IMG/VR virus record: IMGVR_UViG_3300046371_000029
Location: 1 to 55,340 of that record
From: a virus
Direction: 5' to 3' (one strand)
Length of the DNA: 55,340 nt
Below are positions 43,260-55,056 of this stretch, piece by piece. How positions within the stretch are numbered: the first letter of the stretch is position 1; every line of letters starts with the position of its first letter. Both the position numbers and the translations under genes were made by a program. The notes under the pieces are model-generated. The model ran no database searches, was not told the DNA's origin, and saw nothing but the letters and a program-made list of their open reading frames with translations.

Positions 43260-44147
43260 TCATACATTCTTACGTGCTGTCAAGGCATTATTTGCACTGA
43301 CGAAAGTATTTTTCAGGTATGGCTTCACTGATTGTGGGTTAGCATGTCCTGTAACCGACATAATCTGTCCTATTCCTACCTCTGCATCCACCATCTCTGT
43401 CACACCTGTGCGGCGCAGATCAGACAGGCGTAATTCTTTCGACAGTCCAGCGTCATCCATTAGCTTACGCGCATGTAATGGCAATTTGTACTGTGAATAT
43501 GGTGCATACACGCCGTGTCTAGGCACTGGACGTGGTGCTACATACTCTTGAAAGCCAAAGTCTTTCTCCTGTTGTACTAACATATCATACAAATCGTCAT
43601 CAATAGGCAGTTCAACCATTGCATTACGCTTAGATTGCAGGATGATAACACGCCTCTTTTCAAAGTCAATGGCATTCCATTTTAATAGACGCATATCACC
43701 TACACGCTGACACCATTCATATGCCATGTGAGCAATCAAACCTATGTTACGTGTGCTAAAATCGCTGTAGGCGGCGTCTAGCAGTCTCTGCACATCCTCT
43801 CTACACCAAACAACCTTGCGGGGCTGTGTGGTCCTTCTACGCACTGTAGCGAAAGGATTGACAAAACAATGTTCCATTCGCAGTGCATAATTATACAGTA
43901 ATCTAGCTATTGCTAGAATGTGATTCGCAGTAGAAATACCACGATCACACCACTGGTCATAGGCTAACTTGGATTGCTTGGTGGACAGCTTACTGCAATC
44001 CACCTCACCAACTACTGCGCCATCAATATTGGTAGCCAATACAGCACCAAGGCAGTACCGATAATGTACTTTAGTTGCATCACGTAACTCCTTGAAATCA
44101 TGGGATAAGTAGTAATCATCTACCAATGTACATAGAGTAATGCTCAT
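43260..44147 (-). CDS. int: Tyrosine recombinase / integrase
   Basis: A 295-residue site-specific recombinase. The N-terminal half is a SAM-like DNA-binding domain (LVDDYYLSHDFKELRDATKV). The catalytic half shows R148 (WCQRVGDMRLL), K173 (LQSKRNAM), S242-x-x-R245 (LSDLRRTGVTEM, where the usual first His is Ser), H268 (VTGHANPQS) and the nucleophile Y277 (VKPYLKNT). Would integrate and excise the phage or resolve multimers. It sits within the replication operon. No repressor gene or attachment core is recognised nearby. GAAAGGAA lies before the ATG. Confidence 0.88.
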   Translation of the reverse strand: MSITLCTLVDDYYLSHDFKELRDATKVHYRYCLGAVLATNIDGAVVGEVDCSKLSTKQSKLAYDQWCDRGISTANHILAIARLLYNYALRMEHCFVNPFATVRRRTTQPRKVVWCREDVQRLLDAAYSDFSTRNIGLIAHMAYEWCQRVGDMRLLKWNAIDFEKRRVIILQSKRNAMVELPIDDDLYDMLVQQEKDFGFQEYVAPRPVPRHGVYAPYSQYKLPLHARKLMDDAGLSKELRLSDLRRTGVTEMVDAEVGIGQIMSVTGHANPQSVKPYLKNTFVSANNALTARKNV

Positions 44148-47837: not shown

Positions 47838-47845
47838 AATAACTC

Positions 47846-48022
47846 CTATGGATAACGTCTGCCTCTGTGTATGGCTACTGCCTCATCATCTGTTTCTGCC
47901 AGATCAAATGAGCGATTGATAATGGTAACACGCAGCGACTGATCTTTTACCCGCTGTTGTTTCCACGCTGGTGCTTTCTTACTCACCCTTTTTATACGCA
48001 TCCTCTTGATGTTTGAACGCAT
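47846..48022 (-). CDS. Tiny basic protein (58 aa)
   Basis: A 58-residue frame (RVSKKAPAWKQQRVKDQSLR, then AETDDEAVAIHRGRRYP) from ATG 48022 after GAGGAC. It overlaps the upstream tiny gene by 44 bases; GTG 47986 would remove most of the overlap. The stop is eight bases before the next ATG. Basic and probably nucleic-acid-binding (inference). Confidence 0.6.
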   Translation of the reverse strand: MRSNIKRMRIKRVSKKAPAWKQQRVKDQSLRVTIINRSFDLAETDDEAVAIHRGRRYP

Positions 48023-48143
48023 CTCTTTTGTCCTCTTTACGTTTGTCTGGTGTACCTTTACCTTTGTGGCTGGGTACGACTTGGGTTACACGCCGCCTGT
48101 TTGCTGCGGCGATTGGATTATGTATAGTCTTTCTTGTTCTCAT
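47979..48143 (-). CDS. Tiny basic protein (54 aa), common phage type
   Basis: A 54-residue Lys/Arg-rich protein (MRTRKTIHNPIAAANRRRVT, then VVPSHKGKGTPDKRKED). The arrangement KTxHNPxA... then QRVVxxKKGKG is one I know from small, otherwise unnamed proteins of many phages. No function established. The 97 bases upstream (48144-48240) hold nothing I can assign. Confidence 0.68.
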   Translation of the reverse strand: MRTRKTIHNPIAAANRRRVTQVVPSHKGKGTPDKRKEDKRDAFKHQEDAYKKGE

Positions 48144-48240
48144 AGTCAACCTCATTTATATCGTGCAATGGGTAGACAGGCTCTAGCCCATCAGACCCAT
48201 CACACTAGCACCTAACTTTCATTCTTCGCAGACCTACTTG

Positions 48241-48417
48241 CTAGGCGATCTCATACAGCATCATCTGCAATTCATCTTGATATTCATGGTATCTTGACCA
48301 GTCATCATCCGATAGTTTGTCCACCTGTCCTTCATTTAGCAGGTGATGGATTGAGTACAAGTCCACGATGTCACCATTCTGGTATCTGTCTAGTCTGTTA
48401 AAGTCTTTATGTTTCAT
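48241..48417 (-). CDS. Tiny acidic protein (58 aa)
   Basis: A 58-residue protein (KDFNRLDRYQNGDIVDLYSI, then VDKLSDDDWSRYHEYQDELQ). ATG 48417 follows the preceding stop by one base (TGATATG), indicating coupling. Helical and acidic; function unknown. Confidence 0.65.
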   Translation of the reverse strand: MKHKDFNRLDRYQNGDIVDLYSIHHLLNEGQVDKLSDDDWSRYHEYQDELQMMLYEIA

Positions 48418-48418
48418 A

Positions 48419-48833: not shown

Positions 48834-49064
48834 GCTCAGGACTTTATAAGGCAGTTTATCCACGTGCCAAGGTGGTAGTCTCCATTGTTAAGCGCAGCAC
48901 TGTTGCCACTTGTCACATTTAAGGCTATGACCAGACCTATGAGTAGTTTAACGTCATTACTCAGGACGCACCAGTTTTCTTGTGAAGGCGCACTGATCGT
49001 TACCTACCTGCGTTCTGTTTATAGTCGTCTACAGGCTTGACCGTGTTTATACTCACTCGACTAT

Positions 49065-49138
49065 TGGCAGACGTGCAAGGAATTGAACCCTGTCCTAGTG
49101 GGTTGGAACCACTTGTGCTACCGTAACACTTCACGTCT
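49065..49138 (-). tRNA. tRNA-Trp (anticodon CCA)
   Basis: The minus strand folds as a cloverleaf: acceptor AGACGTG/CACGTCT (seven perfect pairs), D stem GTG/CAC with a TTACGGTAG loop, anticodon stem AGTGG/CCACT with loop TTCCAAC (anticodon CCA at 49106-49104), T stem CAGGG/CCTTG (one G-U) with loop TTCAATT. The discriminator is G, as in bacterial tRNA-Trp, and the 3' CCA is encoded (49067-49065). Position 8 is A rather than the usual U, so modification or function could be unusual. The bases at 48834-49064 hold no gene I can support. Confidence 0.88.
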
Positions 49139-49161
49139 ATAAATTCAATAATAAATAAAGT

Positions 49162-49197
49162 GGGGTGCTTTTTCTTCAACCCATACCGTCACACCCC
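49162..49197. other. GGGGTG/CACCCC inverted repeat downstream of 49275 gene
   Basis: GGGGTG at 49162-49167 and CACCCC at 49192-49197 face each other 24 bases apart. On the minus strand the right arm continues as GTGACGGTATG, which also occurs beside the inverted repeat at 50242-50292. It lies between the early gene and the tRNA and could be an RNA processing or regulatory structure. Confidence 0.45.
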
Positions 49198-49274
49198 TTG
49201 AACAGTATGAGCCTACACCTATGTCATGGCATGTCTTACAACGCCTATCGTTTCGCATAGGTACTCCACGAAAC

Positions 49275-49948: not shown

Positions 49949-50164
49949 TTACGCAGTGATAGCCTTGGGGCTAACAAAGCGACCAGTAACAGGATCACGA
50001 CCCAAAAGCAAGTAGCTTTGGTGACGTGCCATTGATCCTACCTGTTTGCCGTAACGTGTCTTGCCGTTCTTAGAGTTTTTCTCAGAGCGTTGGAAGAACA
50101 CATTGCCAGCGTAGGCAGGGTTGATGTTTTTCACGTTAGTGGTGAGGATTTTCTTGACATTCAT
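49949..50164 (-). CDS. First early gene, small basic protein
   Basis: A 71-residue basic protein (NVKKILTTNVKNINPAYAGN, VFFQRSEKNSKNGKTRYGKQ, LLLGRDPVTGRFVSPKAI). It is the first gene of the leftward operon, with a strong AAAGGAG box before ATG 50164. As the first product made it could be a host-takeover or regulatory protein (inference). No family recognised. Confidence 0.78.
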   Translation of the reverse strand: MNVKKILTTNVKNINPAYAGNVFFQRSEKNSKNGKTRYGKQVGSMARHQSYLLLGRDPVTGRFVSPKAITA

Positions 50165-50203
50165 TTTGCATCTCCTTTGATGTTGGTTGTTGAATGTGGG
50201 TAT

Positions 50204-50232
50204 ACATTACACCCCATAATCACACCAGTCAA
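50204..50232 (-). promoter_or_regulatory. Possible early promoter with embedded GGGGTG motif
   Basis: On the minus strand TTGACT (50232-50227), a 17-base spacer and TAATGT (50209-50204). The -10 is weak. The GGGGTG motif (50215-50210) sits inside the spacer right next to the -10, a place where a bound protein would control initiation. The next gene begins 40 bases downstream. Confidence 0.5.
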
Positions 50233-50241
50233 CAATAAAAT

Positions 50242-50292
50242 ATGGGGTGACAATAAATATCTGGCACGTTGCCTAGCATACCGTCACCCCAT
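50242..50292. repeat. Inverted repeat ATGGGGTGAC / GTCACCCCAT
   Basis: A perfect ten-base arm at 50242-50251 and its complement at 50283-50292, 31 bases apart. The loop contains CGTTGCCTAGCATAC. The arms carry the same GGGGTG core found at 50210-50215, 49911-49916, 49162-49167 and 49192-49197. Upstream of the early promoter, it looks like an operator pair or an RNA stem. Confidence 0.6.
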
Positions 50293-50430
50293 TGTTTTAT
50301 GTTTTACTCTCAATTTTCACCCGACTTGCTATCGTCAGTTTTTCACACCTGTTGCGTCAACGGCATATCCAAGGATAGCTAGGGCATCCGCGCTTTGTGT
50401 AGTTACTTATTGAGCCTGTAAAGTAGATTT

Positions 50431-50478
50431 TTGTTTGTGATGCTCACATGTTACCATGACATGGTACACCACAAACAA
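50431..50478. repeat. Nested inverted repeats in the control region
   Basis: Outer arms TTGTTTGTG (50431-50439) and CACAAACAA (50470-50478) enclose a perfect inner palindrome TACCATG-A-CATGGTA (50452-50466). The inner 15-mer looks like a dimeric repressor operator; the whole could also form one long RNA or cruciform. Confidence 0.6.
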
Positions 50479-51391
50479 CCTCGTCAGCACTGTGACGCAT
50501 GGCTAGACAACTTACAAGACTAGCCTGTTTACATTACGCCCCTGATACATTTGGAGTTGGGATTTCCCTTGTCGGCCTTGTCGATCATACACTATCTGCC
50601 TTGGTAGCTAGTGCTGTAATCCGACTGGTTGCGTCAAGTTATGACCACCCTTCGCCCGTGCATAGTCCGCACATGGTATCGGTTCGCTAGGCTACACGGG
50701 ATTGACCGCATCTTTGCCCTGTTTTTGGTCAGTGTCTCGCACTGGCAGGTTTTTATTGGAAAACCTCGTAAACCGTCTTTTCAGTCTCATTACTCTAATT
50801 CACTTCAATTCGGTAGTCAACTCTTTTTTATTCGGTAGGCGTATTCTGTTTTATTCTTTATGCCTAGCTGAATGTTGCACGTGGCGATTATCAGTTATCT
50901 AGCGTTTACTTTTGCGAGCCATGTTGAACCTTGCGGTTGGTCTGGTTGTTCGCTTCAGTCTCTAAATCCTGCCTGAATAAATAGGTAAAGTATACAGCTA
51001 ATTTCATTAATGTTTTCAGTAGGTTACTGATTAACGTATTGTTTTTGTTGGATATTTTATTTCAATTATTTTTGAATTATTTTTGGTTATGTAATGTTTT
51101 CAATGACTTAGCTATGAAATTAATTTGAATATGTAATGAAAACAAAGGGATAGGGGGTATGGTCTGAAAAATCGTTTTTTATATATAATAAGTGTAGATG
51201 GTTTTTTATGTGCTTCGCCGCAGTAAAGTGTTGCCAAAATGCCACAAAATTGTATTTTTGCCACACATTTTGATCGTCAATAGATAGAGTATCAATAGCC
51301 TAAAGCAGATAATCGTTTATTTTCAGCGGTTTAGAGCGATTGACCATCAAAAATGTCCAGATTGCGCCACTACTGGTGAATTTTTGACCAT

Positions 51392-51424
51392 GGGGCAGGG
51401 GCCACGGGCGGGGTATACGTATAC
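51392..51424. other. G-rich tract (possible quadruplex) followed by palindrome
   Basis: Four G runs (51392-51395, 51398-51401, 51406-51408, 51410-51413) separated by one to four bases could form a G-quadruplex. The last G begins the perfect 12-bp palindrome GTATACGTATAC (51413-51424). Both stand out in an A/T-rich surrounding. Confidence 0.6.
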
Positions 51425-51573
51425 GTACTTGTAGAAATACACAGATCAGGAAAATGAACTGTTAACCACAAAGGCAACTGTAGTATATACACCTACAAGC
51501 ACACACTATTGTGCAAATATTTTGCGTGAAAACACCATATATGAAATATATTTCTAATACCTAAATTAACCTG

Positions 51574-51602
51574 TTGACACGATCCCCTGATTCTGGTATA
51601 AT
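51574..51602 (+). promoter_or_regulatory. Full-consensus sigma-70 promoter of the rightward operon
   Basis: TTGACA (51574-51579), 17-base spacer ending TGG, TATAAT (51597-51602): consensus at both hexamers, spacing and extended -10. TGGTATAATTAT and the following A/T pattern are shared with the fibre promoter at 16912. It points into the late operon, about 160 bases before its first gene. Confidence 0.9.
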
Positions 51603-51623
51603 TATGTATAACTAGGAATCATA

Positions 51624-51731
51624 TAAGTGTTACACTTAACTGTCCTTAGTTAAATCTATAAAAACACTTAGCTACAACACTTAAATGATTTAAAGTTTCT
51701 TTGTTAATACACTTAACTGAACACATAAGTG
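51624..51731. repeat. ACACTTA motif array downstream of the main promoter
   Basis: Direct copies at 51632, 51664, 51677 and 51709 and inverted copies at 51624 (TAAGTGT) and 51726 (TAAGTGA, one mismatch). The first two face each other as a palindrome. Copies 51632/51664 and 51677/51709 are both spaced exactly 32 bases, about three helical turns. TACACTTAACTG occurs exactly twice (51631 and 51708). Likely protein-binding sites in the leader of the rightward transcript. Confidence 0.75.
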
Positions 51732-51762
51732 ATATTATCCGTGATAAAGAAAGTTCTTGACA

Positions 51763-51975
51763 ATGGCGAAGAAATCTGTAAAACTATACACAGACAATGT
51801 ACTTGATGCATTCTACAATGCCATCCGTACAAACACATTAGACAAACTCCACATACCTCATAGCGATGTTTTCTACGTGCGTACTGCTGTAGAGGCATAC
51901 TATGGGCGTTCCTTTACTCTGAAACACGTAGAAGATGCTATGAGAGCAGAAGGGTGGACAGAGAGGAACGAATGA
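51763..51975 (+). CDS. First gene of the rightward operon, small conserved type
   Basis: A 70-residue protein (KLYTDNVLDAFYNAIRTNTL, DKLHIPHSDVFYVRTAVEAY, LKHVEDAMRAEGW). I recall the LDKLxIPYSDVFYxRxAIE pattern from marine phages; it is helical and could be a small winged or helix-turn-helix DNA binder. ATG 51763 is preferred over TTG 51757; the ribosome site is weak. Its place behind the strong promoter and the ACACTTA array makes it a candidate regulator (inference). Confidence 0.75.
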   Translation: MAKKSVKLYTDNVLDAFYNAIRTNTLDKLHIPHSDVFYVRTAVEAYYGRSFTLKHVEDAMRAEGWTERNE

Positions 51976-51976
51976 T

Positions 51977-52174
51977 ATGTTTGAAGCATGGATAATGGTC
52001 TGTGTTATGTACCAGACAGGTGCGTGTTTTCCTGCACAAGACACTCGTGGTCCGTATAAGACGCATGACGAGTGCTATGAGCGTACCGTAGAAATGAGTG
52101 CAGATATTATTGAGAACATTCCGCTACACGTACCTGTAAGCTGGAAGTGTACATCACCGGGAACTCCAACATAA
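51977..52174 (+). CDS. Small Cys-containing protein with hydrophobic N-terminus
   Basis: A 65-residue protein (MFEAWIMVCVMYQTGACFPA, DTRGPYKTHDECYERTVEMS). The hydrophobic start is weak as a signal peptide; C9, C17, C33 and C58 could form disulfides outside the cytoplasm. The RGPYKTxxECxxRxxEM pattern is one I associate with marine phages. Its stop TAA overlaps the next ATG. Confidence 0.72.
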   Translation: MFEAWIMVCVMYQTGACFPAQDTRGPYKTHDECYERTVEMSADIIENIPLHVPVSWKCTSPGTPT

Positions 52175-52467
52175 TGGCTATACCAGAGAGAGTACGTAAT
52201 AAAATGAAGGAGGAAGGTCTTAAAGGCGTGAACAAGCCTAAGAGAACTCCTAACCACCCAACTAAGTCTCACTGTGTGATGGCATCAGAAGGTGGTAAGT
52301 ATAAGTTCATACGCTTTGGTCAGCAGGGTGTATCAGGTGCTGGTAAGAATCCTAAGTCAGCGAAGGATAAAGCACGTAAGAAGTCCTACTATGCACGTCA
52401 CAATGCACAGGGCAAGCCAACTACTAAGCTGTCTGCGAAGTATTGGTCACATAAGGTTAAATGGTAA
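52174..52467 (+). CDS. Basic DUF6321-like protein
   Basis: A 97-residue basic protein. The C-terminal half (FGQQGVSGAGKNPKSAKDKA, RKKSYYARHNAQGK, LSAKYWSHKVKW) matches the short DUF6321-type signature seen in phages and large viruses. Start ATG 52174 overlaps the preceding stop. Function unknown; DNA binding or a virion role is possible. Confidence 0.8.
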   Translation: MAIPERVRNKMKEEGLKGVNKPKRTPNHPTKSHCVMASEGGKYKFIRFGQQGVSGAGKNPKSAKDKARKKSYYARHNAQGKPTTKLSAKYWSHKVKW

Positions 52468-52477
52468 AGGATTAGTT

Positions 52478-52945
52478 ATGGCTGGAGTAGATAGTGTAGT
52501 AAGTCTTGCTTACAAATTAACAGGACCGATTAGAAGGAAAGCGATGAATGCTTTGGGTATTAACCCTGCAGGTAAACCGGGTCGTTCTGGAGATGGTATT
52601 GTAGTAGGACGTGATAGGGTAAGGATTGAAAATAAAATCAATCAGCTAAAAGGTGGCGGTAAAGCATTAGGTGCTGCTGCTATTATTCACGAGTTGCTAG
52701 GTATTAACACTGTAGCAGATGGTTCTATTAAAAAGGACGGTGCTAACTATAAGTTTGTACCTGTAACACCTAAACCTAAAACAAAAGCTAAAACAAAGCC
52801 TGACCCACGCAAAGACAAACAGATAGCACTTCCTAAACGCAAACCTAAAAAACCTAAATCAAAAGTAACACCACCAAAGCCCAAGCCCAAGAAGAAACAG
52901 AATGGTGTGAAGTTCGTATTTGAAACAAAGAAGAAGGGTAAGTAA
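52478..52945 (+). CDS. Lys/Pro-rich basic protein, unknown
   Basis: A 155-residue protein. A small N-terminal domain (LAYKLTGPIRRKAMNALGIN, GGGKALGAAAIIHELLGINT) is followed from about residue 95 by a Lys/Pro tail (KPKTKAKTKPDPRKDKQIAL, KRKPKKPKSKVTPPKPKPKK) like histone H1 tails. ATG 52478 has AAGGAT upstream. Could condense DNA in the virion (inference). Confidence 0.75.
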   Translation: MAGVDSVVSLAYKLTGPIRRKAMNALGINPAGKPGRSGDGIVVGRDRVRIENKINQLKGGGKALGAAAIIHELLGINTVADGSIKKDGANYKFVPVTPKPKTKAKTKPDPRKDKQIALPKRKPKKPKSKVTPPKPKPKKKQNGVKFVFETKKKGK

Positions 52946-54056: not shown

Positions 54057-54405
54057 GAAAAAAGATCCAGTTGCTGGTATGAGTAAGGCACAAATTCTCA
54101 AAGAATTTAGTCCTAAAATTATAAGACAATTTGGTGAAGATGAACTTAAATTTATAAAGGATGAATCTAGTGGTCCGGGTGGTGTTGACAGGCTACGCAG
54201 TTATGTCCGTGATTATTTTTATGCTAAAGGCGGTTCTGTTACAAAGAAGAAAATGATGCGTGGTGGTGGTATGCTTAAGGCCGCTGGCAAAAAGAAAATG
54301 ATGCGTGGTGGAGTTGCCAAGAAGAAAATGCGTGGCGGTGGCATGGCTAAGATGGCAGCTAAGAAAAAAATGATGCGCGGTGGAATGGCTAAGAAGAAGA
54401 AGTAA
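54049..54405 (+). CDS. Basic protein with tandem KKMMRGG repeats
   Basis: A 118-residue protein. Residues 1-58 form a small helical domain (GMSKAQILKEFSPKIIRQFG, DRLRSYVRDYFYAKGG). Residues 59-118 contain five or so copies of KKKMMRGG or KKKMRGGG separated by Ala/Lys linkers. At DNA level the units (AAGAAAATGATGCGTGGTGG-type) are near-identical, so recent duplication is likely. A flexible basic tail for nucleic acid or capsid contact is inference. ATG overlaps the previous gene by eight bases. Confidence 0.78.
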   Translation: MAEKKDPVAGMSKAQILKEFSPKIIRQFGEDELKFIKDESSGPGGVDRLRSYVRDYFYAKGGSVTKKKMMRGGGMLKAAGKKKMMRGGVAKKKMRGGGMAKMAAKKKMMRGGMAKKKK

Positions 54406-54764
54406 TGCCAGTACTACAATCAGGTTCAAAGTTCCGTACCGAAGTCGTGTCGTTGTCCACAACGAACAAGACGAATGTGTACACCGTACCTGCAAACTTT
54501 TCTTCACACTTGGAGAACTTGTTTGTAAGTAATAACCACACAGGTAACGTGACTTTGAGCCTACATTTTTTTCATGCAGATGATAATACAGAGTATGACT
54601 TGTTGACTGCTCACAATATTTCAGGTGGTTCCTATGAGTCTATCTTTACTGTAGACAGACCACTGTATCTACATGCAGGTGATATTATCAAATGCACAGC
54701 AGGTACAGCTAGTAAGCTAGTTGTTACTACTGCATGTGAAGAATTTTTTGACCCAGCGAGATAG
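54405..54764 (+). CDS. Small beta-rich virion protein
   Basis: A 119-residue protein of beta character (TEVVSLSTTNKTNVYTVPAN, NVTLSLHFFHADDNTEYDLL, LYLHAGDIIKCTAGTASKLV). The layout resembles 16962-17291 and of similar cyanophage structural proteins. Its ATG overlaps the preceding stop (TAATG). Minor virion protein by context. Confidence 0.7.
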   Translation: MPVLQSGSKFRTEVVSLSTTNKTNVYTVPANFSSHLENLFVSNNHTGNVTLSLHFFHADDNTEYDLLTAHNISGGSYESIFTVDRPLYLHAGDIIKCTAGTASKLVVTTACEEFFDPAR

Positions 54765-54774
54765 GAGACAGGAG

Positions 54775-55056
54775 ATGCCACGTGTCACTAAAAAACCAGC
54801 CGCTAAAAAGAAAGCCACACCGACTTCAGCGAAAGCGAAACAGACTAGAACGGTTAAACTTGCGGCGGGTGGTGCGCCAAAGAGCAAAAGCAGAGTTAAT
54901 GAAGCTGGCAACTATACTAAGCCCGGAATGAGGAAGCAACAGTTTAATCGCATTAAGGCTGGTGGCAAAGGTGGCGCACCCGGTCAGTGGTCAGCACGTA
55001 AAGCCCAGATGCTTGCCAAGGCTTACAAGTCAGCAGGTGGAGGTTACAAGTCGTGA
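54775..55056 (+). CDS. Small basic protein with GQWSARKAQ signature (DUF5872-like)
   Basis: A 93-residue basic protein. The Lys/Ala N-terminus (RVTKKPAAKKKATPTSAKAK) is followed by KLAAGGAPKSKSRVNEAGN and the conserved C-terminal part FNRIKAGGKGGAPGQWSARK, ending GGGYKS. The signature is that of short DUF5872-type proteins. AGGAG is seven bases before ATG 54775. A diverged version of its 3' end is at 1-68. Confidence 0.78.
   Translation: MPRVTKKPAAKKKATPTSAKAKQTRTVKLAAGGAPKSKSRVNEAGNYTKPGMRKQQFNRIKAGGKGGAPGQWSARKAQMLAKAYKSAGGGYKS

Follow-up and report, generated by a model that had tools for sequence, protein, structure and literature searches.

Organisation of the 1.6-kb intergenic region

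The stretch of DNA analysed here (the window; 55,340 nt, IMG/VR record IMGVR_UViG_3300046371_000029) belongs to a podovirus of the HMO-2011 type, as judged by its family A DNA polymerase with a DnaJ-type motif, its integrase, its B12-type ribonucleotide reductase and its gene order. Phages of this type are described as dominant and widespread in the ocean (PMC9038755). The DNA polymerase is 75% identical to the enzyme of Puniceispirillum phage HMO-2011, an identity from which the host is probably SAR116, and the window also encodes a tyrosine integrase (43263-44147), a DnaB-type helicase and one tRNA-Trp. Its last ~277 bases repeat bases ~75-352, and from this repeated contig end the assembled unit is judged to be probably circular. 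Between the two contig ends (1-352 and 54989-55340) the first ~75 bases do not agree, reflecting either an imperfect circular overlap or a local assembly error.

Two gene sets diverge from positions 50164 (minus strand) and 51763 (plus strand), as the initial annotation described, with the right-hand border better set at the ATG at 51763. No open reading frame in the gap between them (50165-51762) belongs to a known family or is conserved in translation, and the relatives contain no conserved translated gene there. The view that the gap holds no supported gene is therefore correct for protein genes but not for RNA: its left half probably encodes a conserved structured RNA that had been overlooked. 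The contrast with the rest of the genome is weaker than claimed, because other gaps do not nearly all fall below 100 bases; there are further ones of ~580 nt (47838-48418) and ~410 nt (48864-49274, with the tRNA-Trp inside).

The gap is not a single control region but consists of three parts (Table 1), namely the RNA gene, a conserved DNA element, and promoter P3 with a cluster of short sites (51574-51735). It is a divergent control region in the sense that P2 and P3 are conserved promoters directed outward, and a switch operating at these two promoters is possible. The very A/T-rich stretch singled out previously does contain the most AT-rich 150-nt windows of the record (starting at 50976-50988; 21% GC), and the G-rich tract is likewise present, at ~51392-51415. 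The several repeat families mostly reduce to short two-copy matches at the level expected by chance, leaving the CACTTA/TAAGTG half-sites at 51630-51720, while the nested inverted repeats are real where they form part of the RNA (50231-50303). When the gap is aligned with cultured HMO-2011-type relatives, a comparison that the initial annotation had proposed, only ~51390-51762 can be matched.

Table 1. Features of the intergenic region and the genes that border it (window coordinates)
Feature	Position	Strand	Basis and remarks
First leftward gene, 71 aa	49949..50164	-	Open reading frame; no family
Promoter P2, leftward genes	50198..50232	-	TTGACT - 17 nt - TAATGT; TTGAC-17-TAATG-like in homologues
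Structured RNA (type A), ~550 nt	50236..50785	-	Ends predicted from P1 and 3' hairpin; covariance model R1, 196 bits
RNA 3' terminal hairpin	50242..50292	-	Conserved internal GCUAG / CAG-UUAAG-type motif, then U-rich AUAUUUUAUUGUU in the window
Promoter P1 (predicted), 5' of the RNA	50792..50820	-	TTGACT - 17 nt - TAGAGT; position and spacing kept in homologues
AT-rich stretch (highest A/T content in the record)	50976..51137		GC scan
Conserved DNA element	51392..51472	+	GGGGCAGGGGCCAC - G/C-rich - TACGTATAC-like - AAATACACAGATCAGGAAAATGAACTGTTAACCACA; core 51435-51470
Promoter P3	51574..51602	+	TTGACA - 17 nt - TATAAT with TG extension
CACTTA/TAAGTG half-site cluster, possible operators	51620..51735		Repeat search
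First rightward gene, 70 aa	51763..51972	+	Open reading frame; conserved in HMO-2011-type phages

The conserved DNA element and the rightward promoter

The consensus promoter already recognised in the gap, P3, is a 12/12 sigma-70 match with an extended -10 region. A 12/12 promoter match is found in 67 of 105 relatives and in none of the 105 shuffled sequences. Across the same number of relatives, the half-sites occur at 8.6 per kb in the interval and at 0.24 per kb elsewhere, a 36-fold difference. Judged from these sequences, P3 is probably a strong promoter of the rightward genes and is probably regulated.

Upstream of P3 lies the DNA element. Scanning with its conserved core (TACACAGATYAGG...TGTTAACCAC) returned at least 120 contigs, and scanning with the 70-aa gene returned 572 relatives, 80 of which were kept; the G-rich tract of the window, used as an exact pattern, gave no match, because that segment varies. 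The core is present as one copy in 207 of 210 sequences (a set that includes repeated fetches of some contigs), 233 to ~420 nt (in one case 843 nt) upstream of the same 70-aa gene, and carries ~2 bits at most positions among 144 distinct copies. No column pair covaries among these 144 copies, so the element is regarded as conserved as a DNA sequence and was not treated as an RNA. Its G-rich segment (51392-51437) is C-rich in about one quarter of the relatives, as if strand-swapped, with the flanking boxes fixed. The nearest relatives of the window by right-hand genes, L131 and L066, are 99% identical to it over 514 columns of the tree alignment and match it by blastn at 94% over 51435-52481. 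This homology begins abruptly at 51435, inside the element, and the genes to the left are unrelated; the element therefore marks the border between an exchangeable left module and a stable right module.

A probable structured RNA gene in the left half of the gap

Homologues of positions 50182-50900 have low identity but extend over the full length. An HMM search yielded 25 distinct homologues of the RNA, here termed type A, all of them on metagenomic phage contigs. Along the minus strand the homologues are all arranged alike: P1 is followed by structured sequence (~500-560 nt) and then by a long terminal hairpin, after which come P2 and the leftward genes. P1 is sigma-70-like throughout (TTGAC-17/18-TANNNT). 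In four loci (L007, L008, L181 and L182) P1- and P2-like sequences lie only ~320-360 nt apart, presumably framing a shortened or otherwise reduced version of the RNA. The homologues have no coding sequence in common: their longest sense reading frames average 40 aa, against 51 (sd 18) in shuffled sequences, and differ in position from one homologue to another.

No Rfam family matches the type A RNA, even when the RNA alone was searched at E<=10; blastn against 50,697 phage records found no relative of it, and the RNA search pattern had no match in bacterial and archaeal genomes. Nor is any RNA described for HMO-2011-type phages in the literature searched, subscription papers and preprints lying outside that search. 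The tRNA-Trp(CCA) gene (49065-49138) is 1.1 kb from the RNA; several further type A loci also have this tRNA gene downstream, others do not, and it is absent from all 14 loci without the RNA that were scanned.

Evidence for a conserved secondary structure

Folding of single sequences gives z values of only -2.6 to -2.9 for the RNA, and in 350-nt windows the type A loci have a mean of about -0.6 to -1.2, which is not distinct, whereas the alternative content of the same site (type B, below) is strongly distinct. Covariation was therefore relied on for type A. In a structure of 80 pairs and 18 helices, 91.2% of cells are paired and 45 of the 80 pairs show two-sided change, with values as high in none of 500 shuffles; the two-sided changes amount to 234 cells where shuffled alignments give 73 (sd 8). 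Shuffling lowers the covariation score from 0.369 to 0.186 (sd 0.007). Such statistics can be inflated by recombination, and this family is a mosaic. Controls in which partners were slid by 1-3 columns gave 31-41% paired cells and covariation of 0.05-0.07, a comparison that favours the structure because it was partly derived from the same sequences on which it is scored. RNAalifold prefers the minus strand (-38.8 kcal/mol, covariation -7.08) to the opposite strand (-17.4 and -1.51). An R-scape-like tree test, home-made rather than the published R-scape and based on redistributing substitutions on the tree, gave three pairs at E<0.05, all of them canonical against a background of 13%.

The exchanges are also seen directly in individual helices, as in CUCAA/UUGAG replaced by CCCGA/UCGGG and GGCUAG/CUAGCC by GACCAG/CUGGUC. 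The 3' hairpin (helices 16-18) is 92-100% paired, and its stem sequence is exchanged between groups; in the terminal stem, AUGGGGUGAC/GUCACCCCAU gives way to CCGGCGAC/GUCGCCGG and to GAGGGGC/GCCCCUC. A covariance model of the 3' domain detects loci outside its training set, L187 (E 4e-9), L195 (2e-6) and L232 (1e-17), recovering the hairpin in each, and these matches are independent, model-based support for the structure.

Proposed expression of the RNA and alternative roles for the gap

The left half of the gap is likely to be the gene of a large non-coding RNA, structured and produced from the minus strand as a discrete molecule that acts in trans. Host RNA polymerase would start at P1 (~50785); the transcript of ~550 nt would fold into several domains with long-range pairings and would end at the terminal hairpin (~50236), just ahead of P2, from which the leftward gene set would then be started. 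A separate transcript is suggested because P1 and P2 flank the RNA. In part of the family (L206, for example) the terminal hairpin has no U-tract, so that termination is less sure there. During infection the RNA would most likely act in trans, the mode assumed for GOLLD and ROOL.

A different role, that of a replication origin occupying most of the gap and made up of an AT-rich unwinding stretch, the conserved DNA element and replication-priming promoters, seems on balance unlikely, but it fares best among the alternatives. The cumulative GC skew of the circular unit, proposed earlier as a check, does turn here, with its minimum at ~51.0 kb and its maximum at 32.2 kb, and this turn coincides with the most AT-rich stretch and the single conserved element. 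The coding strand switches at the same place, however, and the skew follows that switch as well, so the turn by itself says little. DnaA-like 9-mers barely exceed chance (6 against 3.3 expected), the gap contains no iteron array, and an origin would leave the covarying RNA unexplained. An origin confined to 50976-51480 could be compatible with the RNA.

The RNA might instead serve the leftward operon in cis, as a long 5' leader with the role of, say, an attenuator or a switch. It always lies immediately upstream of the leftward genes, and helix 13, in which 50387-50381 pairs with 50215-50209 (93% paired), crosses the presumed 3' end of the RNA and links it to the P2 stretch. In addition, the -10 box of P2 is embedded in a palindrome (50198-50216) whose arms change together between phages (GGGTGT..ACACCC, GGAAGT..ACTTCC, GGATG..CATCC) and which may be either an operator of changing specificity or a leader hairpin. 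As a switch, GGGGUGU (50215-50209) would alternate between two pairing partners, GAUGCCCU upstream and the ACACCC-type arm downstream. It is because of helix 13, this palindrome and the lack of a U-tract in part of the family that a leader deserves consideration. Yet P2 (TTGAC-17-TAATGT) is kept between the RNA and the first gene, so that the genes need no leader; the large size and many independent domains would be unusual for one; and helix 13 has two-sided changes in just two of its seven pairs. A cis-acting leader is accordingly improbable, and the switch just described equally so; a discrete RNA is preferred.

For the conserved element to be a packaging (cos/pac) site is more doubtful still. 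The element is single-copy and of fixed orientation, with a variable G- or C-rich segment, as might suit such a site, but the contig ends near it, an indirect measure in place of reads, lie anywhere between 137 and ~3900 nt upstream of the 70-aa gene, show no peak and so lend no support to a packaging end. That the gap is the attP of the encoded tyrosine integrase is highly improbable: an attP must lie somewhere in a phage with an integrase, but the gap has no sequence resembling a tRNA 3' end or T-arm, while CRP-3, of the HMO-2011-type group, integrates at a tRNA 3' end (PMC6918029), and subgroups IV-X, in which the element probably also occurs given its wide spread, are reported to have no integrases (PMC9038755).

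A different structured sequence at the same site

The cultured phages HMO-2011, CRP-1 and CRP-345 have a genome plan in common with the window, with DNA polymerases 66-75% identical, and share its DNA element and 70-aa gene, but they lack the type A RNA; their slot is occupied by an unrelated, hairpin-rich stretch, type B. This folds strongly in HMO-2011 and CRP-1 (z of -5.6 and -4.2), and its 46 homologues, CRP-345 included, give seven significant column pairs, six of them canonical. RNAalifold leaves the strand undecided (-51 against -54 on the two strands), and type B is for that reason not called a defined RNA. The 111 non-redundant loci comprise 22 of type A, 43 of type B, 11 that are partial and 35 that are neither; none has both, where about eight would be expected by chance. 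Mapped on a tree built from the right-hand genes, the type A label must change at least 13 times on well-supported branches, from which it follows that the content of the slot has been exchanged often.

The type B structure continues into the first leftward gene. In HMO-2011 this coding sequence (phage1322_74, ADW08446; L002:498-1115, record positions 54168-54785) contains 16 perfect hairpins with a stem of at least 5 and a loop of 3-6, against 2.0 (sd 1.3) in synonymous shuffles, and gp01 of CRP-1 and gp01 of CRP-345 show the same excess. Over 49 type B loci, which contain near-copies and are not 49 independent events, the first leftward genes have 707 perfect hairpins against 141 expected from synonymous shuffling, and each locus lies above expectation. 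On the sense strand, purines prevail in the loops (AAA 111 against TTT 37, GAA 80 against TTC 14). No such excess is found in the DNA polymerase, the terminase or the window's own leftward gene.

It is tempting, if speculative, to suggest that HMO-2011-type phages reserve this slot for structured RNA at the head of the leftward genes, and that the unrelated types A and B interchange in serving a single function, such as that of a decoy or shield against an RNA-targeting factor of the host. Type A would then be a large, ornate RNA, and type B an early transcript saturated through its protein gene with short purine-loop hairpins; both statements are as tentative as the suggestion itself. Since the hairpin-saturated gene occurs in cultured phages, a need for dense structure in early transcripts is a directly testable idea.

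Comparison with known large phage RNAs

With its compensatory changes and its lack of shared coding sequence, the type A RNA probably belongs to the general kind of large structured phage RNAs. A family that Rfam does not contain, and that moves between phages as a module, enlarges the small set of such RNAs known and offers a defined object for work on structure and function. GOLLD and ROOL are of this kind: phage-borne, often near tRNAs, and of unknown function (PMC12286853). The type A RNA is like them in kind but is not a member of either Rfam family. It resembles GOLLD in being a large structured phage RNA in which the 3' region is conserved and the 5' region varies more; GOLLD sometimes lies near a tRNA (PMC12286853), as the window's RNA does. 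It differs in having no Rfam match at E<=10, in its length (~550 nt, where GOLLD often exceeds 800 nt), and in having its own promoter pair and a fixed place before the leftward genes. ROOL likewise differs from it in sequence and helices, and no Rfam match connects the two; what they share is a phage-borne location, which in ROOL is often near tRNAs, a length of ~600 nt in ROOL, and an architecture of multiple helices with long-range pairs (PMC12286853).
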